64,000 bases of DNA, taken from positions 4,627,001-4,691,000 of the forward strand of contig NC_134662.1 in the NCBI RefSeq assembly GCF_030463565.1, in the 5' to 3' direction. How positions within the stretch are numbered: position 1 is the first letter of the stretch; every line of letters begins with the position of its first letter. The stretch is from Pelecanus crispus. Lineage: Eukaryota > Chordata > Aves > Pelecaniformes > Pelecanidae. The translations under genes and the position numbers were made by a program. Shown here piece after piece: positions 24,956 through 63,515 of this stretch. The notes under the pieces are model-generated. The model ran no database searches, was not told the origin of the DNA, and saw only the letters and a list, made by a program, of their open reading frames with translations.

Positions 24956-25997
24956 TCAGCGTTCCTGCAGGGCGACGTACGGCACCCACTGGTTCCGGTC
25001 GCGGCTCTCGGCGCAGTAACTGGCCACCTCTGCCAACCCTTGGCTCTTCCAGGAATCCGTGTGCGGGTTCTGAGGAGCAGAAGCACGAGGTTAGTGCCAT
25101 CGTTGCCCCAACACGTGGCCCTGAGTGTGTGTGTGTCCCCCCACCCCACCTCCCTCCATCCTTGGCGCGGCGCCTGGCGTGAATCACCGGGCCGCCGGTG
25201 CGTGGCCGTGCATCACCGTCCCGCTCACCGTGACTAAGAGGCAGTGGAGGTCGCGGGGCTCGGCGCCCGGTTCGGGCTCGCCCAGGATGGCGGCCAAGCG
25301 CTGCATGCCCGAAACGCGCAGGATGTGGATGTCGTTGTCGCAGCAAAAGGCCTGGATGAGGGTGAAGTGGATCTGCAGGGCGATGTCACCTTCGTCCTCC
25401 TCATCGGTGGCCAGCAGGCACAGCACCACGCTGTCGGGGTCCCTGTGGGCGCACGTGGCGTTAGCAGGGGACGTGCACCCCAAAATCGGCTCTGGATGGT
25501 GCAAGTCCCCACCCCGGCGCTGTCCCACCCGCGGGGCACCGAAACCCGGGTCACCGGGGCCACCTCCCTGCATGCAGGGAAGGGATGGGGGACAGAGCCC
25601 CCCCAGCACCGGGGCTGCTCCAGGCGGCCCCCCCACCCTGCACAACCCCCTTGGGAAGAGCCAGCTCCGCATGACACCCCCCCCCATGCAAACTGCGCTG
25701 GTGCTGCCTGGCCCCCCACCCCTGCACCCCCGCACAGACACCCCAAATACTCACACGTTCATGAGCTTGGCGGACTCGTAGACCCCCACCGTGAGCCGGT
25801 CCTGCCGCTGCGCTGCCACCAGCACCCGCTCCACCGCCTCGCTCACCGCCTGCATCCTACGGGTGACACACGACAGAGCCGGTGAGCAGCGGCGGCGACA
25901 ACGACGGACCCTCCCCCGGGCTCCCCCCCCACCCCAGCCCCGGGGGCCGCCGCACTTACTTGCTGCTATCGCAAGGCACCAGCTCCTCCAGGGTCAT
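24956..25997 (-). CDS. GADD45B: GADD45B, growth-arrest and DNA-damage-inducible protein beta
   Basis: Four coding exons on the minus strand: 25960-25997, 25755-25856, 25229-25442 and 24956-25069. All phases agree and give 155 residues (human about 160). The product starts [15 protein letters not shown] and includes [66 protein letters not shown] and [12 protein letters not shown], all hallmarks of GADD45 beta. It is a small acidic nuclear/cytoplasmic protein of the L7Ae-like fold. Family members bind and activate MTK1/MEKK4 (p38/JNK arm), and GADD45B also restrains MKK7; the acidic loop after ATDEED is the likely partner surface. It is regulated from a TATA promoter with two CCAAT boxes. The neighbour GNG7 matches human 19p13.3. 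Confidence 0.97.
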
Positions 25998-26180
25998 GGT
26001 GCAATTTTGTAATCCGGGGCGGGCGCCCAGAGGCCGCGGGCTCCGCGGGGGGAAGGCAAATCCCAAGAGCGATAATCCCGAGAGTGGCGGCGGTGCTGTC
26101 GCGGTGCTGTCGCGGTGCTCGCTCCCTCCAGCCGCTGCTGCAGCGCGATCGCTCTGAGCTGTCCCCACGCCCGGCGCCGC

Positions 26181-26188
26181 CTTTTATA
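26181..26188 (-). promoter_or_regulatory. GADD45B: TATA box of GADD45B
   Basis: The minus strand reads TATAAAAG, about 185 bp upstream of the GADD45B start codon, with transcription expected to start near 26155. A strong TATA box fits an immediate-early stress gene. Confidence 0.85.
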
Positions 26189-26235
26189 GCCTCCCGCTGA
26201 GGGGCGGGGCGTCGCGCGGCGCCCCCGCTTCGCCC

Positions 26236-26282
26236 ATTGGCTGGCCCGGCACAAAGCCACGGGCGGGCGCCGCGGGGATTGG
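26236..26282 (-). promoter_or_regulatory. GADD45B: Two CCAAT boxes upstream of GADD45B
   Basis: ATTGG at 26236-26240 and at 26278-26282 are CCAAT on the minus strand, 48 and 90 bp upstream of the TATA box. The spacing of four helical turns suits paired NF-Y binding. Confidence 0.7.
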
Positions 26283-26397
26283 ACGCCGCCGGCGGGGCCC
26301 ACGTGGGGATGGGCCCGGGGGGGGGGGGGAGCGGGGAAACCCCCGCCCCGAAACTGCCCCCCCCCCGCCCCGGGCCGTGCGGGGACCGGGAGCGGCT

Positions 26398-27350
26398 CCG
26401 GGGGTCGATCCCTGCTCCGGGGGTCGGTCCCTGCACCGGGGGTCGGTGGCTGCACCAGGGGGGTCGGTCCCTGCACCGGTCCCTGCACCGGGGGGGTCGG
26501 TGGCTGCACCGGGGGGTCGGTCCCTGCACCGGTCCCTGCACCGGGGGGGGTCGGTCCCTGCACCGGGGGCAGCACCGGGGGGGTCGGTCCCTGCACCGGT
26601 CCCTGCACCGGGGGGGTCGGTCCCTGCACCGGGGGCTGCACGGGGGGTCGGTGCCTGAAGCGGAGGCTGCACCGGGGGGGGTCGGTCCCTGTACCGGGGG
26701 GTCGGTCCCTGCACCGGGGGTCGGTCCCTGCACCGGAGGCGGCACCGGGGGTCGGTCCCTGCACCGGGGGGCTGCACCGGGGGGTCGGTGCCTGAAGCGG
26801 AGGCTGCACCGGGGGGGGTCGGTCCCTGCACCGGGGGGTCGGTCCCTGCACCGGGGGCAGCACCGGGGGTCGGTCCCTGCACCGGGGGGCTGCACCGGGG
26901 GGTCGGTCGCTGCTCCGGGGCTCGGTCCCTGCACCGGGGGCAGCACCGGGGGGGTCGGCCCCTGCACTGGGGGCAGCACCGGGGGTCGGTCCCTGCACCG
27001 GGGGTCGGTCCCTGCACCGGGGGCGACACCGGGGGTGTCGGTGGCTGCACCGGGGGTCGGTCGCTGCACCGGGGGCGACACCGGGGGTCGGTGCCTGGAG
27101 CGGAGGCTGCACCGGGGGGGTCGGTCCCTGCACTGGGGGGGGTCAGTCCCGGCACCGGGGGTCGGTCCCTGCGCTGGGGGCAGTACCGGGGGTCGGTCAC
27201 TGCACCGGAGGCGGCACCGGGGGGTCGGTCCCTGCACCGGAGGCGGCACCGGGGGGGTCGGTCCCTGCACCGGGGGTCGGTCCCTGCACCGGGGGGCTGC
27301 ACCGGGGGGGTCGGTCCCTGCACCGGGGGTCGCTCCGTGCACCGGGGGGA
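26398..27350. repeat. About 20-bp minisatellite between GADD45B and the SMN-like gene
   Basis: Unit about TCGGTCCCTGCACCGGGGG with G-run length changes and inserts (GCTGCACC, GGCAGCACC, GTCGGTGCCTGAAGCGG), roughly 45 copies over 950 bp. It begins only about 200 bp upstream of the GADD45B TATA box. All frames stay open on both strands, giving spurious 390-490-residue frames. Confidence 0.95.
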
Positions 27351-28084
27351 GGCAATTCGTGCATCGGGGCGCGGAGGAGGCTGGGTCCGTGCACCGGGAC
27401 TGGTAACGGGGCGGGGGGGGGGGGGGAGGTCGGTGCACTCAAAGCGGGGGACGCGGGGACACGCGCCGGGAGCTCCGTGAGGCGGGGCCGGGCCGGGCCC
27501 CGGGGCTGGGCGGGCGGCGGCTGCCACCTACCGGGAACGGGCGGTCCGGGCTGGCCCCGCGCCCTCGCCCCGGGCCGTGCCGCTCTCCCGGCCGCGCACG
27601 CCCACACCGCCCACCCACGGTGCTGCCCCCCCCCCCCCCCCACGCGTGGACACCGCGGATTTGCACCGGGGGGGGGTGGTGTGTGCATGTGTGTCCCCCT
27701 CGGTCGCTCCGTCGCGGTCCCCGGGTCCCGCTGCGGCGGGGCCGGACCGGTGGCTGTCCCCGGGGCCGTGGGGACGCCCACCCCCTGCGCCCGCCGTGCC
27801 TCAGTTTCCCCCAGCCGTGGGTCCCGCCTGCCCGCGGCCCCTGGCACCGCGCTGGCACCGTGCGCGTGTCCCCACCGTCCCCTGCACCCCCCGCGTGTCC
27901 CCGTTCCCGTCCCCCCCCCCCCGCGGCCCCTCCGCGGCCCCGCGCCGCCGAGCACCGCCGCAACTCGTTGCACCTGTGGCCGCGCTCCCCCGTCTCGCAC
28001 ACCTCCCACCAGCAGGGGGGGCAGAGGCAGCGGCGGCGCTCTGCCCGCCCTCTCGCTCTCCCCCCCCGCCGCTCGCGCTGCCCT
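27351..28084. other. Intergenic GC-rich DNA upstream of the SMN-like gene
   Basis: No gene is seen. It is a C/G-rich, CpG-dense stretch containing homopolymeric C and G runs and one copy of the recurring word GTGCCTCAGTTTCCCC (27796-27811). It probably forms the upstream part of the CpG-island promoter of the SMN-like gene. Confidence 0.6.
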
Positions 28085-28151
28085 CTGGGTAATGTAGTCG
28101 CAGCACGCCCCGCCCCTTCCGCGCCGCGGGGGCGGGGACTACATTACCCAG
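28085..28151. promoter_or_regulatory. Inverted pair of ACTACATTACCCAG sites at the SMN-like promoter
   Basis: CTGGGTAATGTAGTC (28085-28099) and its exact reverse complement (28137-28151) flank a 37-bp spacer containing a GC box. Each arm resembles the ZNF143/THAP11 element ACTACAATTCCCAG. The pair ends about 95 bp upstream of the proposed start codon, and a CACGTG E-box lies at 28208-28213. Confidence 0.6.
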
Positions 28152-28246
28152 GCGGCACCGCGCGGGGGGGGAGGCGGGGCCGGGGAGCTGTGGGCGGGGA
28201 GCGGGGCCACGTGCGGGCGCGGGGGTGGTGCCGCCCGCGCCGGGCC

Positions 28247-29728
28247 ATGGCCGAGAGAACCCCGGGGCCGCGGGTGGGCAGGGGGCGGGGGGCACCGGGC
28301 TGGGCGAGCTGAGAGTGAGCTACAGCGGGGCTGGGGGCGACCGGAGCGGGACCGGAGCGGGGCTGGGGGCGACCGGACCGGGGCTGGGGGCGATGGGATC
28401 GGGACTGGGACCGGACTGGGCTGGGGGCGACCGGACCGTGGCTGGGGGCGACGGGACCGGGACTGGGACCGGACCGGGCTGGGGGCGACCGGACCGGGGC
28501 TGGGGCCGTCAAACCGGGACCGGACCGGGGCTGGGGGCGACCGGACTGGGGCTGGGGGCCATCAAACCGGGACCGGACCGGGGCTGGAGGGTCTGGACTA
28601 GCCGGGGTCGGGGGGGACTGGACCAGCAGCGGGAGGGGGTCTCGGCACCCCGGTCCAGCCGGTGTCCGGGACGGGCCGGGATGCTCCGCGGGTACCGGTG
28701 CCCCCGTCCCGCTCCGTGACGCCACCGTTGCTGCTCACAGGGTCCCGACCGCGCCGGCCCCGACGCGGGGGTCCCCCCCGTAGCGGGGTGCCCGTCCTCA
28801 GGGAAGGCGGCGATGCCAGGGGCTGCCCCGCTCCGCTCCCCCCGCACCGCCGTCCCCCGGGATGCTCCGGGCGAGGGGTCGGACGGTGACTCCGCGACCC
28901 CCACCTCGAGCGTGACCCCCAGCGAGGAGGAGGAAGAGGAAGGCCACCAGGTGAGCGAGCCATGTCCCCAAACCCCGTGGGATGTGGGGGGCCGCGATGT
29001 CCCCCCGTGACCCCACCGGCTGTCCCCGCAGTGGAGGGTGGGCGATGCCTGCAGCACGGCCTGGGAGGGGGACGGGCTGCTGTACCCTGCCCGGCTGCGA
29101 GCGCTGGACCCCGCCGCCGGCACGTGTCTGGTGGAGTTCGACGGCTACGGCAACACCGAGGAGCGGGCGCTAGCCGATCTCCTGCCCCCCCGCCCCGGGC
29201 CCTGGGGGGGCAGCGACACCCCGGGGGGCGAGGGTCCCCACGCAGAGCCCCGCCGGCCCAGCACCCCCTCGTCGTGGGAGCTGCCCCCGGGTGCGAGGAG
29301 GAGGAAGGGCGAGCGGGCACCCCGCGTCCCCCACCCCCCCGAGGTGAGCGCCTGCCATCCCCCTGGCTTTTGGGGCACCCCACGCCCCCCTCCCCCCATC
29401 TCTCCCTAAGGGGCTGGGGGTGCTCCTGGCAGGTGATGCCCCCGCCGTGGCCCCCAGTCTCGCTGCACGCTGTGTGGGAGGAAGAGGAGGAGGAGGAGGA
29501 CGCCTTGGCAGCCATGCTGATGGCCTGGTACATGAGCGGGTACCACACCGGCTTCTACGTGGTACGGCAGGGTGCGAGGGGCGAATGGGGTGGGTGGGGG
29601 GAAGGAGCAGGCCCCCCCCCATGACCCCCCGCTCCTCTGTGCCCCAGGGCCTCCGGGAAGGCCGGGCGGATGCTGCTGAGCCCCCCCCGAGGCCGGGCCG
29701 CCGGCAGAAGCAGCCGCCACGCAGCTAG
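28247..29728 (+). CDS. SMN-like protein: Tudor domain plus YG box (SMN paralogue)
   Basis: The model has exons 28247-28273, 28741-28950, 29032-29343, 29433-29561 and 29648-29728, all phase 0, giving 252 residues. Residues 80-132 are a Tudor domain (WRVGDACSTAW, YPARL, VEFDGYGNTEE); the cage residues equivalent to human SMN W102, Y109 and Y130 and the N132/E134 positions are present, with Y127 replaced by Phe. Residues 206-226 are a YG box (MAWYMSGYHTGFYV), followed by GLREGR. The splice points before WRVGD and before GLREGR match SMN exons 3 and 7, and a further intron follows the stop as in SMN exon 8. SMN's Gemin2-binding segment (SDDSDIWDD) and its lysine-rich stretch are not visible; a Glu run (SEEEEEEGHQ) precedes the Tudor domain instead. 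Family role: binding symmetric dimethyl-arginine tails and self-association in snRNP assembly. Exon 1 is tentative; the rest is firm. Confidence 0.85.
28330..28605 (+). repeat. Minisatellite in intron 1 of the SMN-like gene
   Basis: Units built from GGGGCTGGGGGCGACCGGAC and GGGACCGGACCG, about 30 bp each, repeat for roughly 275 bp between the proposed exon 1 and exon 2. It is strongly G-biased on the transcribed sense strand. Confidence 0.85.
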
Positions 29729-30006
29729 GAGGGCAGGTGGGTTTGGGGGTGCTCCGGGGCCGGGACCCCCCTCTCCACGCTCCCCATCAGGGCCCCGCTC
29801 TCCCATCACCACCCTGCTGGGGGGGGGACACACGGGGGACCTGGGAGGGCTGTGGGACACGAAGGGACCCCGTAGGGATGCTGTGGGGTTGGGGGAACCC
29901 ATGGGGACGTGGGGGGACTTGGTGTGGCTGTGGGACGCGGGGACGGGGGGGCTGGGATACCCCATCGCCCCTTCCCTGCCGCTCACCCATGTCTGCTCTC
30001 CTCCAG

Positions 30007-30240
30007 CTGGATCCGTCCCCCCACGCCGTGCCGGAGCGGCAGCTGTCGGGCAGCGCCGCGTTCCCGCTCTGCCCTTGCTTGCGGAGGGTGCTGCGCCCAC
30101 CCCGGGGGTCCCAGCTGCAGGGCTGGGGGCAGCAGTCTTCCTCCACCCCGGCCGGCTCTGTATCAGAGCCCCGGCTGGGGGGGGCTGCAGTCCCCACTCT
30201 GTGTCCCCCCCCCCATCCCCTCCTTTGGAATAAAGCTGTT
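30007..30240 (+). other. 3'UTR exon and polyadenylation signal of the SMN-like gene
   Basis: The stop-containing exon ends at 29736 (GGGCAG followed by GTGGGT), and an acceptor CTCTCCTCCAG precedes 30007. The terminal exon carries AATAAA at 30229-30234. An intron placed just after the stop codon is the same arrangement as exons 7 and 8 of mammalian SMN, which strengthens the homology call. Confidence 0.7.
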
Positions 30241-30659
30241 TGCGAGACGCCTGCGCCAGCCTGCCTGCGCCATCCCCAGAGGCACCCTCGGCTCTGCCAG
30301 CGCCACGCCGGGACCAGCCGCGCCGCCGCCGTGTTTGCTCAGGGAATTGGCAGAGTGGCCTCTGCCTCGCCGCGGGGGCTCAGCCCCGGGGCGGGGATGG
30401 GGGGTCTGCACCCGCCAGCTCTCGGGCTGCTCCGGCTGGACGTGGCACTGACGTACGTCCCGCCGGCTCGGGGCACCGGTGTCCCAGGGGATGCATCTCC
30501 TGCAGACGTCTCCTGCAGACGTGTGCGTCCCCCCTGTCCGGCTTGATGTCAGCGGCGAGGTTCGGGGGGACACACGCGCACCCGTCTGCGGTGTCCCCGT
30601 CTGCGTCAGCGGGTGTTTGCCCACGCCGGTGACCCTCCGTGGGCCGTGGCGGAGCGGGG
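30241..30659 (+). promoter_or_regulatory. CART2 upstream region with CRE-like sites
   Basis: This 420-bp gap between two genes has no coding content. It holds TGACGTAC inside ACGTACGT (30449-30456) and TGATGTCA (30544-30551), each close to the cAMP response element TGACGTCA. Mammalian CARTPT is known to respond to cAMP/CREB through a CRE; that link for this gene is inference. Confidence 0.45.
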
Positions 30660-30721: not shown

Positions 30722-31784
30722 ATGGAAAGCGCCTGGCTCTGCCTGCTCTGCCTGGCCGGCTCCGGCTTCGTCCTCCTGGGCACCGCGGAGCCGGCGCTGG
30801 GGCTCCAGCCGGCCCAGAGCCTGCCTGGGCAGAGCCGGGAGGAGACGGAGCTGGTAAGGGGCGGGGGGAACGCTGTCTGCGGGGGCTGGGGCTGCCAGCA
30901 CCCCCTCTGCAGCTCTGGGGCACCCCAGGGTGCTCCTGCTCCCGCTGCCCTGCTTTGGGGGCTGGTTCTGGCTGTGCTGGGGTGTCCCCAGCTTGTTGGG
31001 GGGGGACCCTGAGACCTCGCCACTGGTTTTCTGTCACTGCTCTTGGGCACTCAGAGGGTCCTTGCAGCGCCCAGTGGGAATTTGCAGCTTTTTACCTGTT
31101 TTTTCCCTCCCCATCCTGCCCCGAGGGGCTGCTCCGGCTCGGGGCAGTGAGGGGAGATGCTGCGCTGGGTGGGAGCGGGCGGTGGGTGCCGGGGAGCGGA
31201 CACGGGGCTGCACTCTGGGAGGTGGGATGCACCCCAAGCCCCCCCCCCCAATCCTGCCACAGCCCCGATTCCCCTCCAGCAGCAACCGAGCCAGGCAGGG
31301 GGGGTCCAGAGCAGTGGTTACACCCCAGGGTGCAACCTGTGGGGATGGGTGCTGCTTGGAGACGGGATGGGATGCAGCACTGGCATTGTGGGGGGCTCAG
31401 GGTGACGCGGTGCTGTCTGCGGCAGGTCGAGGCGCTGCAGGAGGTGCTGGAGAAGCTGGGGAGCAGGGAGCTGCCGGCGGTGGAGAAAAGGCTGAGCTGG
31501 GTGCCCTTGGTACGGCCAGGCTGGGGGGGTGGAGGGCACCCAGCCCTGGGTGCTTGGGGCGGGGGCTAAACCCTGCAGCCAGCACCGGAGCGAGACCCTT
31601 TGGGTGCCGCAGGGGTCCAGCCCCGGGGGGTGGCCGGGCTGGCTGAGCCCCAGGGCTGACGGACACCGTCCCGCAGTGCGAGCCCGGGGAGCCATGTGCG
31701 GTGCGGAAGGGGGCACGCATCGGGAAGCTCTGCAGCTGCCCCCGCGGCACCGCCTGCAACTTGTTCGTCCTCAAGTGCTCCTAA
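30722..31784 (+). CDS. CART2: CART2, cocaine- and amphetamine-regulated transcript-like prepropeptide
   Basis: Three exons, 30722-30853, 31426-31509 and 31677-31784, all phase 0, encode 107 residues (human CARTPT 116). A hydrophobic signal peptide ([18 protein letters not shown]) is followed by a short pro-region, [17 protein letters not shown] (matching IEALQEVLKKLKSKRVP of human CART), a dibasic EKR convertase site, and the cystine-knot peptide [19 protein letters not shown]... with all six cysteines of [17 protein letters not shown] is identical to the human peptide. The product should be a secreted anorexigenic-type neuropeptide. The three-exon structure equals CARTPT. It lies between the SMN-like gene and MAP1S, as CARTPT lies between SMN1 and MAP1B, so I call it the second CART gene and not the CARTPT orthologue. 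Polyadenylation signal ATTAAA is at 32028-32033. Confidence 0.93.
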
Positions 31785-32033: not shown

Positions 32034-33166
32034 TGACTTGGATTCATGCCTGCTGCCTGCTCTTTGGGGGATTCTGGGGTGCCAGCACCCTTCTGCTGCT
32101 GGCCCCGGGCTGGGCACAGTGCTGGGGTGCTGGGTCCCATCCTGCTGCGGGTCTGAGGCTGGGTGGGCTGCACGGTGGGGGAGCGGGGGCTGCTGGGGTG
32201 GGCTGGGGGCTGGGCCCGGGGGGCTCCTGTGGTCACAGCACAGGTTCTTCCCGATCCACTGGAGCCTGACGGGTGGAGAGGCCGAGGGCAGGGGGATGTG
32301 AGGGGGCTGCACAGCCCGGCCCAGCCCCATCCTGCTCCATCACGCATCACCCAGGCCCTGCACTGCATTGCACTGCACAGCCCAGGCTGGCCCGCGGCCG
32401 CTCGGTCCCGCAGTGCACTGCGTTCACTGCACAGCCCCTGCGCTGCACCCCGCTGCACTGCGCTACCTGTGCGCGGCACGGCATCGTGCTGCACGGCATC
32501 GCCCCATCCCTGCACTGCATCGCACTGCATTATACGCCCCCAGCTCTGCATCGCGCTGCATCTCACTGTGTTGCACGCCCCCAGCCCTGCATCGCACTGC
32601 ATTGCACACCCCCAGCTCTCCATTGCACTGCATCGCCTGCCCCCAGCTCTGCATTGCACTGCACAGCCCCCTCCCCATGCTGCCTCCCATCACTGCATCA
32701 CCCTGCAATGCACTGCATTGCACTGCATCGCCTGCCCCCAGCTCTGCATCGCACTGCGTCGCCTGCCCCCAGCTCTGCATTGCACTGCACAGCCCCCTCC
32801 CCATGCTGCCTCCCATCACTGCATCACCCTGCAATGCCCACCCCCAGCTCCGCGCTGGCCTGCGCACCCCTTGCCTTGCCTTGCCTTGCCTTGCCTTGCC
32901 TTGCCCTGCACTGCACTGCACTGCACTGCACTGCACTGCACTGCACTGCACTGCACTGCACTGCACTGCACTGTCGGGCCCCATCGCCGGCGGCCCCGCC
33001 CTGCCATTGCCCCTTTAAGGCCTCCCCGCCCGCCGCCGCTCCTCCCTGCCCTTTCCCCGCCGCCACCTCCCATTGGCCGACGGTGACATCAGTGGGCGTG
33101 GCCCGGCGGGCGGTGACGCTGCGGGGGCGGGGCCTGGCCCGGCGCGGCGGGCGGGGGGCGCCGAAG
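32034..33166. other. CART2-MAP1S intergenic region and MAP1S promoter
   Basis: No gene is seen. From about 32340 to 32970 the DNA is built of CTGCA/GCACT pentamer words (separate entry). From 33000 it becomes a CpG-dense promoter for MAP1S with an inverted CCAAT box (ATTGG, 33072-33076), the CRE-like TGACATCA (33084-33091) and GGGCGG boxes, but no TATA box. Confidence 0.65.
32340..32970. repeat. Degenerate pentamer repeat ending in pure (CCTTG)n and (CACTG)n
   Basis: The whole 630 bp is made of words such as CTGCATTGCACTGCATCG. It ends with about six CCTTG and about fourteen CACTG units (roughly 32875-32970). A block of about 75 bp beginning CGCCTGCCCCCAGCTCTGC is duplicated about 125 bp apart (near 32636 and 32760). 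The resulting open frames on both strands are repeat translation. Confidence 0.9.
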
Positions 33167-36100: not shown

Positions 36101-39100
36101 AACGTGTCCTTCGGCTCAGCGGATCCGCTGGCCCCCATGGTGTCCGGGAGCGGGACGATGGCTGTCCCTTTTCCGTGGGGGAAGTGCGCAGGCGTTGGCC
36201 CTGCTGCCGTGTTCCCGCCCTATCCCATCCCCACGGGATGAAGCCAAAGTGGGGGTGCAGCCCCATCGTTTTGGGGAGAGTGGGTGTCAGCCCTCGCTCC
36301 CCACAGGTCAGCGGACCCTCCACCACCGGGGAGATGTGCTGGAGACCCTGGTGCTGCTCAATCCTTCTGACAAGTCCCTGTGCGATGAGGTGAGCCAGGG
36401 GGAGACTGAGGGACACGGCTGTGGCCCCTTCGGAGCCGCTGGCAGGGGGATGCCGCGGGATGGAGCCCGGTGGGATCCTCACGTCCCCTCTGTCCTCCTG
36501 TCCCCTCCGTCCTCAGCTGCGAAACCTCATCACGGACGTGTCGCAGCACAAGCTGCTGGTGTTTGCGGGGCCCTGCGTGGAGGAGACGGGGGAGCTGATG
36601 CTGCAGACAGGCTGCTTCTCCCTGCGGGACTTCATACAGATCTTCACGGATAAAGAGGTGCGGTGCCGGGGAGGGGAGCTCGGCTGGGGGGACCCCCGGG
36701 GAGGAGCTGTCTGCTCCCCGCTCAGCTCCCAGGCCTGGCTGCTGTTGCGCGGGGGGGCCGTGGGCCGGCGCTGCCGGAGCGACTGTCTGCTCACGTTCTC
36801 CGGCGTCTCGGCGGGGAGCCGGGCATGGCGGCGGCGCGAGCGGGAGGCTGGCTCAGCCGTCTGCTCCGCAGGCAGCCGCGCAGCCTCCGCCGCCGGCACG
36901 TCCCTCCTGCCGCAGGGCTGGGGAAGGGGCAGCGGGGCTGGGGGGGCGCGATCGGCTGCATCCTGGTCCTGAGCCGCAGCCGGGGGTGGGGGTGAATGGG
37001 CGACTGGCCCCCCGCCGGGCATCGAGCCGGCAGCCGGCACCGGGTGCGGGGAGCGGGATGGGGCTGTGGGAGCCCCCGGGAAGTGGGTGCTCTTGTGCTT
37101 GCCGAGGGAGGGGGGGCTGGAGGGAGGAGGGAGGGCGACGCCTGAGCTGCCGCATCTCTGGCCCTGAGCGCCTCATCCTGCCTGAAGCTCTGGCTGTCCC
37201 CGTCCCCTCGCAGGTAGGGGAGATCCTGAGCTCCGCGGACCCCTCGGCCAAGGCCAGGCTGACCATCAGCTGCCCCGACTTCGGGGAGTGGAGGGACTCG
37301 GGCTTGGATCATCACAACCTTCAGGACTTCATCGAGCTGCGCTACAACCCGGGCTGCATCCTGCCGGAGATGGAGGGGCTGGAGGAGTTCATGGAATACC
37401 TCTCGGAGTCGCTGGAGCCCCAGTCCCCCTTTGACCTCCTCGAGCCCCCCACCATGGTCGGCTTCCTCAAGCTCTCCAAGCCCTGCTGCTATATCTTCCC
37501 GGGCGGGAGAGGGGATTCGGCTTTCTTTGCCGTCAACGGCTTCAACGTCCTGGTCAACGGAGGCTCCAACCCCAAGTCATCCTTCTGGAAGCTGGTCCGG
37601 CACCTGGACCGCATCGACTCCATCCTGGTGACGCATGCGGGCACAGACAGCCTGCCTGGCGTCAACAGCCTGCTGCAAAGGAAGCTGGCCGAGCTGGAGG
37701 AGGATCCGTCCCAGGGCTCGCAGGGCAACGGGGACTGGGCGAAGAACCTCATCTCCCCGGAGCTGGGCGTCGTCTTCCTCAATGCCTCCGAGAAGCTGAA
37801 GGACATTGAGGGTAACTCCCGGGTGCTGAAGAGCTGCGACGAGGCTGCCCTGACCCTGCACTACCTGGAGAAGCTGGGCATCCGTCCCAACCCGCTGGCC
37901 CGGGACAGCGGACCCCGTGCTGAGCCCACCGTCCTCTTCCAGAAGATGGGAGTAGGCCGGTTGGACATGTACGTCCTGAACCCTGTGAAAGGCACCAAGG
38001 AGCTGGAGTTTCTCCTGCAGCAATGGTCAGGCAACAGCTACCCCAAGGAGCAGGACTTGCCCTTGCAGTGCCTGACCTCCGTCTGCGCCCTGCTCGTCTG
38101 GCACCCCGTCAGCCCCTCCGAGAAGATCATCCGGGTCCTCTTCCCCGGCTGCACCCCCCAGGGCCGCATCCTGGAGGGGTTGGAGAAGGTGAAGCACCTG
38201 GAGTTCCTCAAGCAGCCCGTGGTCACCAAGAATGATTTGAAGGGACCACTGCCGTCCCAACCTGAGAAGCCGCTCAAGCAGAGGAGGGCGGAGAGCAAGG
38301 AAAGCCTGAAGTCGTCTTCCAAGCTCAGCTTGGTGGACACCGGGGCACCAGTGTCGAAGGAGAAGGCTCTGAAGGTGGAGAGGAAGGAGGTGAAGGCAGG
38401 GACCAAGGAGAAGCCAAAATCCCTGGGGGAGACTGCTAGAGCGGGGTCGGAAGAGGAGAAAGCCAAGGATGCTCGAGCCAAGCTGGACTCTTCGATAGAG
38501 AAGCTGAAGGTGGATGCAAAGCCGAAGGTGAGCAAGGAGAAAACAGTGCCCAAGAAGGAGCCTGTCCCCCGGAAAGAAGAGAAGAAGCCGCCGAAGAAGG
38601 ATGAGGGGGCCGAGGCGAAGGGGGAGGCCAAGAAGGAGGTGAAGGTGCTGAAGAAGGACGTGAAGGCTGAGACGTTGCGGAAGGACGCGAAGGAGAGCAA
38701 GGCAGAGGCCAAGGCTCCTGCCAAGACCCCGGCCCGGAAAACGCCAGTCCCGGAGACCCGCAAACCCCTGGCCAAGGCCGGCAGCATCAAGAAACCCCCA
38801 CTCAAGAAGGAGCCGGAGAAGCCCAAGGCCAAAGCCCCCCGGGAGGCAGGCGGCAAGAAGGAGCCAGGGACATCGGACTGCTCCAAGTCCTCCTCCCCCG
38901 AGGACATGCTGCCAGAGGCCGAGCGGGGCCGGGGGGCTGCCTCGCCGGGGGCCGGCGGGAGGAGGAGGAAGGAGGAATCGACGGATGAAGGCATCACCAC
39001 GGCTGAGAGCGAGCTGGAGCCCTCGCCGCTGGAGAACGGGGGGGCCGGGAGGCCGGCGGGAGCAGGGGACTCATCCTGCCTGGAGAACGGCTTGGAGGAC

Positions 39101-41091
39101 CCCGACAGCCCCCAGCGTTTCCGCTACCTGGAGAGCAGCCCTTTGCGAGCCGTCTGCCCTCCCTCGCCCCTGGCCAAGACTCCCAAAAGCGACCGCAGCG
39201 TCAACTTCGACCTGACGCCCACCGGGATGCTCAACCACGGCCCGGAGGGCGGTGAGGACGCCTGCGGCAGCTCCGAGGAGAAAACCCTGGAGATGATGTC
39301 TCCGGCCAGCTCGGGGCCGGCCAGCGCCGGGCACACTCCCTTCCACCAGTCACCAGTGGACGATGGCACGGAGGAGCCGGGTGCCGGTGCCAACCGGCAG
39401 CCCAACCCTTGGCCGCCGGCCGGGGGCAAAGCCTCGCAGGACGGCTCCGGCTCCTCGCAGGAGAAGCAGGCGGGCTGCCTCTCCCTCAGCCCCTTCAAGG
39501 ACGATGTCCCTGACGTGTCCCCCACCATCACCACCCCCTCGCTGCCGGCCGAGGTGGGTTCCCCACACTCCACCGAGGTGGACGAGTCGCTCTCGGTCTC
39601 CTTCGAGCAGGTGCTGCCACCCGTCAGCGAGTCCCCACCGGAGGAGGGCAGGCGGTCCCGGGGGACCGGGGGGACGCCGGAACCGGAGGCCACCAAGGGC
39701 GGGTTGTCGCTGCCGCTGCGGCCGTGCCACCACCCGCCGCGGGTCGACGGTGACTCGGTGCCGCGGCCCGACCGCCGCTCTGACTCGCCCCATGATGTGG
39801 ACCTCTGCTTGGTGTCACCCTGCGAGTTTGAGCATCCCAAATCGGAGCGGTCGCCCTCGGCCGCCGCCAGCCCCCGGGAGCTGTCAGACAGCGACCCGTC
39901 GCAGGAGCTGGTGCAGCACCGGGGCCGGCCCCGCCAGCCGGCGGGCGAGACACCCCCCACCTCCGTCAGTGAGTCGCTGCCCACCCTCTCCGACTCCGAC
40001 GTCCCTCCGGCCACCGAGGACTGCCCCTCCATCCTGGCCGACGGTCTGGAGTCGGACGAGGACTCGGAGCAGCCCACCCGCGGCGTGGCCAGGGCCCGCG
40101 ACCCGCTGCCGGCCCCCATGAAGGACCCCTGCCCCATCCCCGCCCAGCCCGGCATCTGCATGGTGGACCCCGAGGCGCTGCTGGCCGAGCAGACCCGCGC
40201 TGGGAAGAAGGAGCCCCCCGGCAAGGTGAAGAGGACCCCGTCCCGCGTGGGCTCGGCACCCGCTGCCCCGAGGGCCGAGCCCCCCCGGCATCCCGCCGTG
40301 GCCCCCAAAGCCAGGGGCCCCACCAGCTCAGCCCGTGACGCTGGGGACAAGGCCAGGCTGGCCCCCGGGGACAAGAAGGGCCCCTCCGGCGGGGACGCCC
40401 GCACCCCAGGGACCACCCGCGGCGCTGGAGCCCGGCCGCTGGCGGGAGCTGGCAGGGCATCACCGGCAGGTATGGGGCGGGGCGGGGGGACACGTGGGTG
40501 CTGCCGGCTCCGGCATCCCTGTGCCGGAGCAGCTCAGAGGCACCCCTGGTGCCGTGCGGTGGGGTGGGGGGGTTTGGGGGCTGCCGCTCACAGCTCCCGT
40601 ACCCCGGTCTTGGCAGGCATGCGGGCTGCGGTCCCCCCGGGCCCCCCCGTCTACGTGGACCTGGCGTACCTGCCCGGCTCCTGGAGCGCCCGGACGGTGG
40701 ACGAGGAGTTTTTCCGGCGCATCCGTTCCCTCTGCTACGTGGTCAGCGGTGACGACCACCTGAAGGAGGGCGTCCTGCGGTCCCTCCTCGACGCCCTGCT
40801 CGCCGGCAAGCACCAGTGGGGCACCGACATCCAGGTGAGCCCCCCTGGGTACCTGGAGCGGTGGGATCAGCCCCCTCCGGTGCTGGGGAGGGGGGGTCGC
40901 GGCGCGGTGACGCGGTGCGGTGGGTGTCTCCACAGGTGACCTTGATCCCCACCTTTGACTCGCTGGTGATGCACGAGTGGTATCAGGAGACCCACGACCG
41001 GCAGCAGGAGCTGGGCATCACGGTGCTGGGCAGCAACAGCACCGTGGCCATGCAGGATGAGACCTTCCCCGCCTGCAAGGTGGAGTTCTGA
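33167..41091 (+). CDS. MAP1S: MAP1S, microtubule-associated protein 1S
   Basis: Seven coding exons: 33167-33359, 35453-35554, 36307-36389, 36517-36657, 37214-40469, 40617-40834 and 40936-41091; phases agree and give 1382 residues, longer than the roughly 1060 of human MAP1S. After an Ala-rich N-terminus come [44 protein letters not shown], the MAP1 core [20 protein letters not shown] and [20 protein letters not shown], a Lys/Glu-rich tract at about residues 525-730, the conserved [17 protein letters not shown] and [18 protein letters not shown] motifs, and the light-chain C-terminus ending [11 protein letters not shown]. Members bind microtubules and actin and are cleaved into heavy and light chains; MAP1S also links to LC3 and mitochondria. 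Its position next to FCHO1 matches human 19p13.11. The Lys/Glu tract is more like MAP1A/B than human MAP1S. Confidence 0.96.
33660..34245 (+). repeat. Minisatellite in MAP1S intron 1
   Basis: About 23-bp units of the type CCCAGGATCTGCCCCCCTAAA alternate with CCCAGATCTGCCCC plus TCTCCTGCCCCAGGGTC, forming a higher-order unit of about 80 bp. It starts shortly after exon 1 of MAP1S, inside the 2.1-kb first intron. The rest of that intron (34246-35452) is GC-rich with no feature I can support. Confidence 0.9.
35629..35726. repeat. Perfect 47-bp inverted repeat (hairpin) in MAP1S intron 2
   Basis: Arm 1 is 35629-35675, the loop is GTCT (35676-35679) and arm 2 is 35680-35726. Every base of the two arms pairs. 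The apex reads CTCGCAC-GTCT-GTGCGAG. It lies 75 bp downstream of MAP1S exon 2. Confidence 0.97.
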
Positions 41092-46561: not shown

Positions 46562-49500
46562 ATGTCCTACTTCAGCGAGCACTTCTGGGTAAGCCTGGAC
46601 CCCCACCCATGGGTGACCCCCACCCTCTGGGGCTCGCTGCGGGGGAGCCCCCAGCCCTCGGAGGTGGCGGGGGGGGGGGGGGTGTGTGTTCATCACCGCC
46701 GGTAATTTTGCAAGGCCCAAACGCTTTCGTTAACGCTGCAAATTAATTGCTGAGGGAAGCGGGGGAGCGATGGGTGCGGGTGGCCTGCGGGGGCCCCCGG
46801 TCGCGGTGCTGTCCCCGTCCCGGCACCGCGGGGGGAAGTTGGCAGCGCCGCGGGGACGCGAAGCGTGGCTGCTGCTTCCTGGTTCGTCTCTGCCAGGGCC
46901 TGGCAGCTGCCTGCATCTTCCCCTTCCCTCTGCCTCAGTTTCCCCAGGTGGGGTTCGTGCTGCTGGGGGCGGGGGGGTGGGAGGGAAGCCACCCCCACGT
47001 GCTGGGCGGGAGCTGGCAGCACCCGAAGCAGCACCCAAAATAGCACCCGGCGTCAGGGCTCAGCCCACCCCTTCCTGCCCCGCGCACCCCGGGGAACCCC
47101 GGCGTCCCAGCCCCGCCACCCCCCGGGCTCCGGCCAGCACCACCCCTGGCACGGGTGGGGGGCTCCGCACCCCCCTGTGCACCCAGGGTGGGCGTCCGGG
47201 CCACCGTACCCCGTTTGGGGCATTCCCACCCCAAATGACACTTTGTGCTGTGCCGGCTGGTGCTCCTGGCGTCCTGGGGGGGGCCGGGTGGGGGTCCCTG
47301 GGTGCCCACGGGGTGCTGGGTGGGTTTTGGGGGCTGAGGGTGGTCCCCTGCCAGGGCGAGAAGAACCACGGCTTCGACGTGCTCTACCACAACATGAAGC
47401 ACGGGCAGATCTCCACCAAGGAGCTGGCCGACTTCGTCCGTGAGAGGTACCGGGGAGCGGGGGGCAACCGAGGGGGTCCCTTGGCATTGCTGGTCTGCGT
47501 CCCCAGCACCCGCTCCCCGCTGTCCCCAGGGCTGCCATCGAGGAGAACTACGCCAAGGCCATGGTGAAGCTGTCTAAGATGGCCACCAACGGCACCCAGC
47601 TGGGGTAAGTGGGGGTCTGGGGGGTCCGGAGCACCCTGAGCTGGGGGTGGGGGGAGCCCACTGATCCCTGCCCGTGCTCCCCCCAGGACTTTTGCGCCGC
47701 TCTGGGAGGTTTTCCGCATCTCCTCGGACAAGCTGGCCCTGTGCCACCTGGAGCTGATGAAGAAGCTGCACGACCTCATCAAGGAGATCTCGCGCTACGG
47801 CGAGGAGCAAGGCCGGGTACACAAGAAGGTACAGCATCCCCCCCCCCAACCCCTCCAGCCCCGTCCTCCCCCACCGTACCCCAAACCCCCCTGCCCACCC
47901 CACTCTGTGTCCCCCAACAAGTCCAAGGAGGAGGTGTCGGGGACGCTGGAGGCCGTCCAGCTGCTGCATGGGGTGGCCCAGCTGCTGCCCAAATCCAAGG
48001 AGAGCTACCACAGCAAGTGCCAGGAGTACGAGCGGCTTCGCAAGGAGGGCACCAGCCAGAAGGAGATCGACAAGGTGAGACCCACGCGTCCCCCCTCGAT
48101 GGCCCCTGTCCCCCCCGATGGTCCCCGTCCCCCTCCGGCTCATGCCCATCGCTTGGTCCCGCAGGCAGAGCTCAAGTCCAAGAAGGCGGGCGAGGCGCTG
48201 CGGCGGGCGGTGGAGAAATACAACGCTGCCCGGGCCGACTTTGAGCAGAGGATGCTGGATTCGGCCGTGGTGGGCAGCGCCGGGGTGCGGGCAGGGCGGG
48301 CAGGAAGGGGTTGGCGTGGGCACAGCTCGGGCGCACGGGGCAGGCTGGTCCTTGGGGACGTGGCAGCCTGGCTGAGCCCCGTTCCCTGGGGATGCTGGCC
48401 CCGGGGGACACGGCACCCTGACGGAGCACGTCTTCCCGGGGACGTGCCACCCTGGCTGAGCCCCGTTCCTTGGCGATGCCGAGCCCTGGGGATCCCCCTC
48501 CTTGGGGATGTCGGCCCTTGGGGATGTGCCACCCTGGTTGAGCCCCCCCTCCTTGGGCGTGAGCCCCATTCCCTGGGGACACCAGTCCCTGGGGACGTGC
48601 CAAGCTGGCTGAGCCCACCTTCGTTTTGATGCCAGCCCCTAGAGCCATGCCACCCTGGCTGAGCCCCCCTCCTTGGGGACACGCTACCCTGCCTGAGCCC
48701 CGTTCCCTGGGGATGCTGGCCCCGGGGGACACGGCACCCTGGCTAAACCCCCGCCATCTGCCCCCTCAGCGCTTCCAGGAGGTGGAAGAAGCCCACCTAC
48801 GCCACATGAAGGGTCTCATCGGCTCCTACTCGCACTCCGTGGAGGACACCCACGTCCAGATCGGGCAGGTGAGTCCCAACAACCACGGGGACAACATCAA
48901 GCTGTCCCCCCTTTTATTCTGAATATGATGTCGTGTGTCCTCCCACCCCCCACCCCCCCCTTTTTTTTTTTTTTTTCTGTTTTCCCCAGGTGCACGAAGA
49001 ATTCAAGCAAAACGTGGAGAACATCGGCACCGAGATGCTGCTGCGGAGGTTTGCTGAGAGCAAGGGCACGGGGCGAGAGCGGCCAGGTGAGGTGTGGGCA
49101 GCATCGCGGTGGGCTCCCCCCCCAGTTTGCACGAGGGTGACGCTCCCCCTCCTCGCACGAGGAGCCCTCGTGCGAGGAGGGGGAGCGTCACCCTCGTGCG
49201 AGGATGGAGCCGCAATGCCGGGCTGATCCCGCTCTCGGTGACAGGAGCGTTGGATTTCGACGAGTACCGGCTGGCCCCAGCGCAGGAAGGCAAGTACGTC
49301 TGCATCCAGCAGCCCCATGCCGGGGATTTTGGGGGTGGAAGGGGGTCTGCTCACCCCTCTGCGCCCCCCTTCCAGGACCCAAAAGGAGCCGTAGCAAAGC
49401 TTTCCGTATCCCTGGCTTGAGCCGTAAGGAGAGGGATCGTGATGCTGTGTAAGATTCCCCCCCGCTCCCTGTGTCCCGCATCCCCGTATCCCTTCCTTGC

Positions 49501-56084: not shown

Positions 56085-57227
56085 AGCATTCCCCCGCGGT
56101 GCTACAGGCTGGAGCTGTGGGGTCTGGTCGCCGTGGGGGTCCTGGGGCTCTGCTTCCTGCTCTACCACGACAACTGGCTGCAGCCCAGCATGGCCCCCAA
56201 GCTCTACACCCCCCCCAGCCCCCGGGCAATCCCCACGCTCTCCATGCCCCAGGCTCTGCCCACCCCTACCCCGTGCGTGGCCAACGCCTCGGTGCACAAA
56301 ATTTCCGGCTTTGACAAATTGCCCGGCCACATTCAGGACTTCATGCGGTACCAGCACTGCCGGTTCTTCCCAGTGCTGCTCGGCGTCCCCAGCAAGTGCG
56401 GGGGGCCCGAGGGGTCCTCCAACATCTTCCTCCTCTTGGCCATCAAGTCATCACCAGCGAACTACGACCGGCGGGAAGTGATCCGCAAGACTTGGGGGCA
56501 GGAGAGGACCTTCGAAGGAGCCTTCATCCGCCGGGTCTTCCTCGTGGGGGTGGACCCCAACGCCCAGAATGCCAAGAAGCTCAACTGGCTGCTGCAGCTG
56601 GAGCAGCAGGAGCATCGGGACGTGCTGCAGTGGGACTTCAGGGACACCTTCTTCAACCTGACGCTGAAGCAGGTGCTTTTCCACGCCTGGATGGAGGAGC
56701 ACTGCCCCGGCGTCCACTTCATCTTCAACGGGGATGACGACGTCTTCGTCAACACGGACAACGTCGTCCGCTTTGCGATGGCCACCCAGGGCACCCAGGA
56801 GCAGCACCTCATGGTGGGGCATCTCTTCACTGGCAACAGGCCCATCCGAGCCCAGCACAGCAAGTATTTTATACCCACACAACTCATGGCCTCCGAGCGG
56901 TACCCGCCCTACTGCGGCGGCGGTGGGATTCTCATGTCTGGCTTCACCGCCCACGTCATCGCCCAGGAATCACGGGGCATCAGCATCTTCCCCATCGATG
57001 ACGTCTACCTGGGTATGTGCTTGGAGAAGGCAGGGCTCCCGCCCGCTTCCCATGCCGGCATCCGGACCATGGGCATATGGGTACCGGCCAACAGCAATCC
57101 CTTCGATCCCTGCTACTACCGGGAGCTGCTGCTGGTGCACCGCTTCCTGCCCTACGAGATGGTGGTGATGTGGCATGCCGTCCACGAGCCCCAGCTGCTC
57201 TGCGGCAAGAAGGTGAGCACCTTTTAG
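55305..57227 (+). CDS. B3GNT3: B3GNT3, beta-1,3-N-acetylglucosaminyltransferase 3
   Basis: The main exon is 56085-57227 (380 codons plus stop), after acceptor TCTCTTGCAG. A phase-0 partner exon 55305-55331 (MAPSCLCDK) is tentative and would give 389 residues (human about 372). The product is a type II Golgi membrane protein: short cytosolic tail, transmembrane helix LVAVGVLGLCFLLY, Pro-rich stem, then the GT31 catalytic domain with IKSSPANYDRREVIRKTWG, FLVGVDPNAQNAKKLN, LQWDFRDTFFNLTLKQ, the metal-binding NGDDDVFVNTDN, YPPYCGGGGILMSGF and IDDVYLGMCL. The enzyme adds GlcNAc in beta-1,3 linkage to galactose, extending core 1 O-glycans used for L-selectin ligands. Placement between FCHO1 and JAK3 equals human 19p13.11 and separates it from other B3GNTs. 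AATAAA follows at 57565. Confidence 0.9.

Positions 57228-58576: not shown

Positions 58577-63515
<4,939 letters not shown>

Follow-up and report, generated by a model that had tools for sequence, protein, structure and literature searches.

We identified a gene related to SMN, whose loss underlies spinal muscular atrophy, on the forward strand of a 64,000-nucleotide stretch of the Pelecanus crispus genome. This whole stretch is here called the window (C20:4627001-4691000); it is part of a GC-rich contig of 7.4 Mb, the size of a microchromosome, in an assembly of 1.31 Gb and 310 contigs. The gene occupies positions 28247-30234, and the span assigned to it in a preliminary description of the window fits, since an ATG lies at its first position and an AATAAA at its end. 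Below, "window gene" denotes this SMN-like gene and "own SMN" the ordinary SMN gene of the same genome, located on contig C46. The features at the locus are the following.

25229..26012, minus strand: GADD45 gene, presumably of the GADD45B type; one exon matches Pfam Ribosomal_L7Ae/Gadd45 (2.7e-7).
28085..28151, no strand assigned: promoter-side inverted repeat with two perfect 15-bp arms (GACTACATTACCCAG) at 28085-28099 and 28137-28151.
28247..28273, plus strand: exon 1 of the window gene, MAERTPGPR, donor CGG/GTGGGC; the weakest part of the model.
28741..28950, plus strand: exon 2, 70 amino acids, ending in the acidic run SEEEEEEGHQ.
29032..29343, plus strand: exon 3, a Tudor domain (first 53 amino acids) followed by a proline/arginine-rich linker.
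29433..29561, plus strand: exon 4 (SMN exon 6), a short proline stretch, an acidic run and the YG box ALAAMLMAWYMSGYHTGFYV.
29648..29736, plus strand: exon 5 (SMN exon 7), GLREGRADAAE..., stop TAG at 29726-29728, then a 3' UTR intron.
30007..30234, plus strand: exon 6 (SMN exon 8 by position), 3' UTR with AATAAA at 30229-30234.
30722..31784, plus strand: CART2-type neuropeptide gene; three exons by eye, the last matching Pfam CART (6.4e-20).
36523..40939, plus strand: at least this part of a MAP1-family gene (Pfam MBL_MAP1B, 8.1e-90, and MAPB1_N), which we take to be MAP1S from its position and from general knowledge.
47700..47834, plus strand: exon encoding a 45-amino-acid piece without a Pfam hit, which we take to be FCHO1-like.

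The window gene encodes a predicted protein of 252 amino acids (26.8 kDa, pI 4.97) in five coding exons, followed by a 3' UTR exon. All five introns of the model begin with GT and end with AG, and these splice sites, together with five coding exons free of stops and frameshifts, give no sign of a pseudogene. The N-terminus could differ from the model because the GTGGGC donor of exon 1 is weak and intron 1 consists largely of tandem repeats. The counterpart of exon 1 in own SMN reads MSERVLFRRGTGQ. A minisatellite with 58-bp units occupies 28326-28587 within intron 1, and a GC-rich minisatellite of ~950 bp with units near 19-33 bp lies at 26398-27348, between the GADD45 gene and the window gene. 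These repeats may help to explain why the gene was overlooked.

The GC content is 0.72-0.80 across 28201-29800, and on the promoter side of the gene the observed/expected CpG ratio is 0.80-0.88 in 27601-28400. The inverted repeat falls in a CpG-rich stretch 95 bp 5' of the ATG, with its arms 37 bp apart; the 15-bp arms represent two exact matches, compared with a mean of 0.05 in shuffled sequences. The arms may resemble a ZNF143/Staf-type promoter element. A scan of the window for promoters and terminators, made with bacterial patterns, found nothing.

Exon 3 matches Pfam SMN_Tudor with an E-value of 8.9e-18 (64.6 bits, cut-off 22.7). Among solved Tudor domains its first 53 amino acids score best against SMN (1mhn, 9.3e-15), followed by SPF30 (6.7e-10) and TDRD3 (1.1e-5). 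Exon 4 matches Pfam SMN_YG-box (E 1e-11; 44.9 bits, cut-off 21.3), and the YG box together with the equivalent of exon 7 matches the human YG-box construct 4gli (E 1.6e-6). In the window a loose YG pattern has a single occurrence, and none of 100 single-base shuffles contains it. Chance similarity to SMN was ruled out by the Pfam, PDB and shuffle scores, and a homologue of SPF30/SMNDC1 or TDRD3 by the Tudor domain being nearer to SMN and by the presence of a YG box.

For individual Tudor residues we use what we take to be the human numbering and the positions that form the cage. The window Tudor domain keeps W92, W102, Y109, Y130, N132 and E134, and has F in place of Y127. The cage residues noted in the preliminary description are thus retained in the alignment at positions 102, 109 and 130, with Tyr127 changed to Phe. 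The cage of SPF30 is given in a passage of PMC10432564 as W83, Y90, F108 and Y111, and because SPF30 has F at the corresponding position, F at position 127 is compatible with dimethylarginine binding.

The YG box had also been described as intact, which agrees with the Pfam and 4gli matches and with the conservation of G271, G275 and G279. In addition to these three dimer glycines it keeps the dimer residues Y268 and Y272, as well as S270, H273, T274 and Y277, which make higher-order contacts (the roles of YG positions in dimers or higher-order assembly are as described in part of PMC8287954). The differences from own SMN are G261A, S262A, I265M, Y276F and L278V; position 266 is Ala in both. 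Y276F alters one of the three dimer tyrosines, and S262A, G261A and I265M alter the helix.

A complete ordinary SMN gene was found on the minus strand of C46, from 69674686 to 69670533. It has eight coding exons and encodes 273 amino acids (pI 8.17), with the Gemin2-binding exon, the basic exon 2b, a Tudor domain and a YG box. Its stop codon is followed by a GTAAGT donor, and the next exon beyond that donor was not located. A second SMN locus, for which the preliminary description had suggested looking, is therefore present, and the window gene is ruled out as the only SMN of the species. Protein searches of the genome identified at least two SMN-type Tudor exons (E <= 0.001; three candidates scored), at least two YG boxes (both of two candidates) and at least one Gemin2-binding exon (the single candidate, with its only match on C46). 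These counts are lower bounds because short queries catch only close relatives and only the best candidates were scored; the genome-wide Tudor search, confined to such relatives, did not return SPF30 or TDRD3. In a scan of viral contigs for relatives, 17 stretches matched a pattern and none was confirmed.

C46 (86.8 Mb) and C45 (22.2 Mb) share gene copies in the manner of Z and W chromosomes, with MAP1B-like, FCHO2-like and GADD45 genes present on both and aligned DNA pieces of the gene pairs 66-93% identical. We infer that C46 is Z-like and C45 W-like. The genome protein searches, which give lower bounds, yielded neither a Tudor nor a YG match of the SMN type on C45, and SMN may be present in a single dose in females.

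Comparison of intron positions supports common descent of the two genes. The preliminary description placed the introns of the window gene at the same places as those of SMN, and for four of the five this holds: one before the Tudor Trp, one before the YG exon and one after YG residue 278 (all in phase 0), while the fourth follows the stop codon. The claim does not extend to the SMN introns 2a/2b, 3/4 and 4/5, which have no counterpart in the window gene. The stretch from Tudor to YG box contains a single intron, compared with three in own SMN. For the intron after the stop, the window gene has its stop at 29726-29728 and a donor at 29737, and the own SMN side of the comparison is its donor alone. 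The kept introns rule out a retrocopy.

We also compared all 40 pairs of window-gene and own SMN exons by local score, with 300 shuffles for each pair. In five of the 40 the score was reached by nine or fewer shuffles. SMN exons 3, 6 and 7 paired with their counterparts in this way (0, 0 and 1 of 300 shuffles, each as one of the 40 pairs). The remaining two, exons 3 and 5 against the YG exon (3 and 7 of 300), look compositional. None of the pairs involving SMN exons 1, 2a, 2b and 4 reached this level among the 40, and the window gene has no recognisable exon 2b, exon 4/5 layout or five-proline run. SMN exons 4 and 5 also have local matches within the window (E 0.003-0.004); these fall in proline/glycine-rich sequence outside the gene and were taken as compositional. 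The Tudor domain, the YG box and the shared introns, all features of the sequence, indicate that the window gene is a member of the SMN family by descent.

Exon 2 of the window gene occupies the place of SMN exons 2a (Gemin2-binding) and 2b (basic), and has no Pfam match at E 0.1. The preliminary description had seen no Gemin2-binding segment, and a profile built from the human, bird and fly segments likewise detected none: across all six reading frames of the window it reached at most 4.0 bits, compared with 63.9 on own SMN and 4.0-9.7 on 20 single-base shuffles of the window. The profile found nothing in 25500-30300, and the best tblastn match of own SMN exon 2a to the window had an E-value of 1.2. 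The window sequence has zero N, which rules out an assembly gap hiding the exon. A hidden exon in intron 1 or upstream was not found in the six frames of the window.

The acidic character of the arm preceding the Tudor domain, claimed earlier to replace a basic run, is apparent in the last 25 amino acids before the domain, with no Lys or Arg and eight Asp or Glu, against 11 and none in own SMN. There is thus no basic stretch in these 25 residues of the window gene. Because neither a Gemin2-binding helix nor a basic region was detected, the window gene would not be a functional SMN of the kind that assembles snRNPs. It could still recruit Gemin2, or do the snRNP work of SMN, through an exon or contact that escaped detection. 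Exon prediction is poor in the largely GC-rich tandem repeats of intron 1, and exon 2 contains a loosely acidic-serine stretch, GEGSDGDSA. However, exon 2 matches SMN exon 2a no better than shuffles do (at least 10 of 300 reached the score), there is no signal of such an exon in 64 kb without N, and the one genomic match is on C46. We regard continued Gemin2 recruitment as improbable.

The neighbours of the window gene provide evidence of its origin. A second CART gene lies on C46 at 69.79 Mb, 118 kb from own SMN. Relatives of the GADD45 gene are found on C46 (49.31 Mb), C45 and C5, those of the MAP1-family gene on C46 (29.98 Mb), C45 and C7, and FCHO-like relatives on C46 (29.62 Mb, with the MAP1B-like gene 0.36 Mb away) and C45. 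All five families tested (SMN, CART, GADD45, MAP1 and FCHO-like) thus have a member on C46, which makes up 6.6% of the assembly. Since the families of the neighbours are also paired with C46, a block (whole-genome) duplication is indicated. Only CART lies close to SMN on C46; the other partners are 20-40 Mb away, and with its members scattered across 40 Mb the block has been broken up. Further MAP1 and GADD45 members are found off C46 and C45, on C7 and C5.

Three further observations concern the window around these neighbours. Between the CART and MAP1 genes, 32508-32973 contains tandem units of 126 bp and an array of the pentanucleotide TGCAC. A galactosyltransferase exon lies at 56499-56699 on the plus strand (Pfam 2.5e-9), and a kinase exon at 61278-61412 on the minus strand is JAK3-like by eye, with kinase matches below the curated cut-offs. 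The order of the galactosyltransferase and JAK3-like genes presumably matches human 19p13.11. On human 5q13, we assume, SMN1 has CARTPT and MAP1B in its vicinity, and we know of no such second SMN copy in mammals.

Whole-genome duplications early in vertebrate history best account for the paralogon. Two such duplications have been invoked for the CART genes, with the MAP1 genes alongside, in portions of a study of chicken CART, which also considers CART2 to be likely lost in mammals (PMC4436185). The CART2/CART1 pair of chicken offers a parallel to the window gene, with a like history of block duplication and CART beside MAP1; the word SMN does not occur in the main text of that study.

The Tudor domains are consistent with an old separation. 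Over 53 positions, human SMN and own SMN (bird SMN in these comparisons) share 41 identities, whereas the window domain shares 27 with human and 26 with bird SMN. Identities to SPF30 number 26 for human SMN, 28 for bird SMN and 22 for the window gene. SPF30/SMNDC1 resembles the window gene in its related Tudor domain and its W-Y-F-Y cage; however, the window domain is nearer to human SMN than to SPF30, and it is accompanied by a YG box, which SPF30 to our knowledge lacks. Among 1000 resamplings of a quartet of four sequences, 828 grouped human with bird SMN, 168 human SMN with the window gene and 4 bird SMN with the window gene, on only 53 sites and with a long window branch. Because of the few sites and the long branch, 828 of 1000 is not strong for a deep placement. 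The quartet, with neither fish nor amphibian among its four sequences, favours a split before the divergence of birds and mammals.

Taken with the equal distance of the window domain from both SMNs, this result makes a bird-specific duplication very unlikely. That the window gene is a recent duplicate of own SMN in the bird lineage could be entertained because just 53 Tudor sites are alignable and little usable synonymous signal is left. It is contradicted by the Tudor distances and the quartet, and the introns were kept and the neighbours duplicated too; its probability is negligible. The preliminary description had called the gene a separate paralogue, and the full SMN on another contig and the grouping of human with bird SMN bear this out.

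Codon changes are concentrated in third positions. In the Tudor domain 38 of 106 first and second positions differ, compared with 40 of 53 third positions (P 3.8e-6); in the YG box the figures are 6 of 44 and 12 of 22 (P 9e-4). The synonymous rate estimated by NG86 is saturated in all four comparisons, and YN00 gave a usable value for the YG box alone (dN 0.20, dS 0.94). Exon 7 is under little constraint, with 5 of 12 residues identical and a dN of 0.69. Had the copy escaped constraint shortly after such an ancient duplication, the Tudor domain and YG box would not show this excess of third-position changes. A dying gene, silenced recently or untranslated and still open in frame for lack of time, would be compatible with the repeats and the high GC content (28201-29800), with a divergence faster than that of own SMN (27 of 53 against 41 of 53 identities to human) and with the poor conservation of exon 7. 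This has a slim chance, as five coding exons are open, the introns are GT/AG, a polyA signal and a CpG-rich promoter side are present, and the third-position excess holds in both domains. Judged from its sequence, the window gene is very probably an ancient SMN ohnologue that is still coding and has no Gemin2-binding segment.

Compared with own SMN, the window gene has the same SMN-specific Tudor domain (26 of 53 identical), YG box, exon boundaries around both and intron after the stop. It differs in having no detectable Gemin2-binding exon and no basic exon 2b, an acidic run before the Tudor domain, three fewer introns and a pI of 4.97 rather than 8.17. Human SMN2 is likewise an extra gene of the SMN family; however, it is a near-identical copy of SMN1 (portions of PMC5694776 and PMC4969610), whereas the window gene is an old and divergent paralogue. 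According to a passage in PMC6603021, SMN sequences of reptiles were all still uncharacterised in 2019. Among the matches listed in a search of the open-licence literature, none describes a bird SMN paralogue or an SMN ohnologue, and an annotation in gene databases is possible.

The combination of retained and missing parts suggests how the protein might act. SMN paired with Gemin2 is considered the elementary building block of the SMN complex, and the YG box, which forms dimers and larger assemblies, has been linked to Gemin3 and Gemin8 as well; mutants of SMN able to mix with the wild type might act dominantly (all from passages of PMC8287954). Contact between the SMN Tudor domain and dimethylarginine causes condensation, as stated in part of PMC10432564. 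The window protein would read dimethylarginine through its W-Y-F-Y cage. Its YG helix, with the dimer glycines and higher-order contacts kept, would join SMN or other copies of the window protein. In a mixed oligomer its share would add methyl-arginine valency without the unit that builds the Sm core, because it would bring no Gemin2 and has an acidic rather than a basic arm. With the Tudor domain and YG box kept and the Gemin2 segment undetected, the protein may adjust how large SMN assemblies are, what they contain or where they are found, instead of building splicing particles itself; the preliminary description had likewise proposed a modulator or competitor of SMN oligomers. We assign a probability of about 0.6 to this explanation as a whole, a Gemin2-less ancient ohnologue that tunes SMN assemblies and does not assemble snRNPs.

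The chances that co-assembly with SMN is the main mode of action are roughly even. The chief rival is that the protein is an independent Tudor scaffold, which associates with itself through its own YG box, binds other methylated-arginine partners and stays apart from SMN in the cell. These partners might belong to nuclear bodies, to germ granules or to a single tissue, and the scaffold would differ from SMN by place, time or partner preference. The different N-terminus, the acidic arm, the altered linker and the missing five-proline run could shift partners and place, and G261A, S262A, I265M and Y276F could favour self-pairing. However, the YG box retains the core residues through which SMN pairs with itself, which makes mixing with SMN the simple expectation, and we consider the independent scaffold rather unlikely, albeit far from negligible.

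If the window protein does tune SMN assemblies, a broader proposal can be made tentatively. A second vertebrate SMN, derived from the two rounds of genome duplication and kept in birds and perhaps in other sauropsids, might serve specifically as a subunit without Gemin2 that determines how large SMN oligomers become and what they consist of, a reading that we consider less likely than not. If so, the subunit may matter more where own SMN appears to be Z-linked without a W copy, an arrangement by which the sexes would differ in SMN dose. An old paralogue that has kept the Tudor domain and YG box without the Gemin2 module would be a natural separation-of-function experiment. With it one could test which roles of SMN depend on Gemin2 and snRNP assembly, for which roles methyl-arginine reading and oligomerisation are enough, and whether SMN assemblies are subject to tuning by a natural protein.
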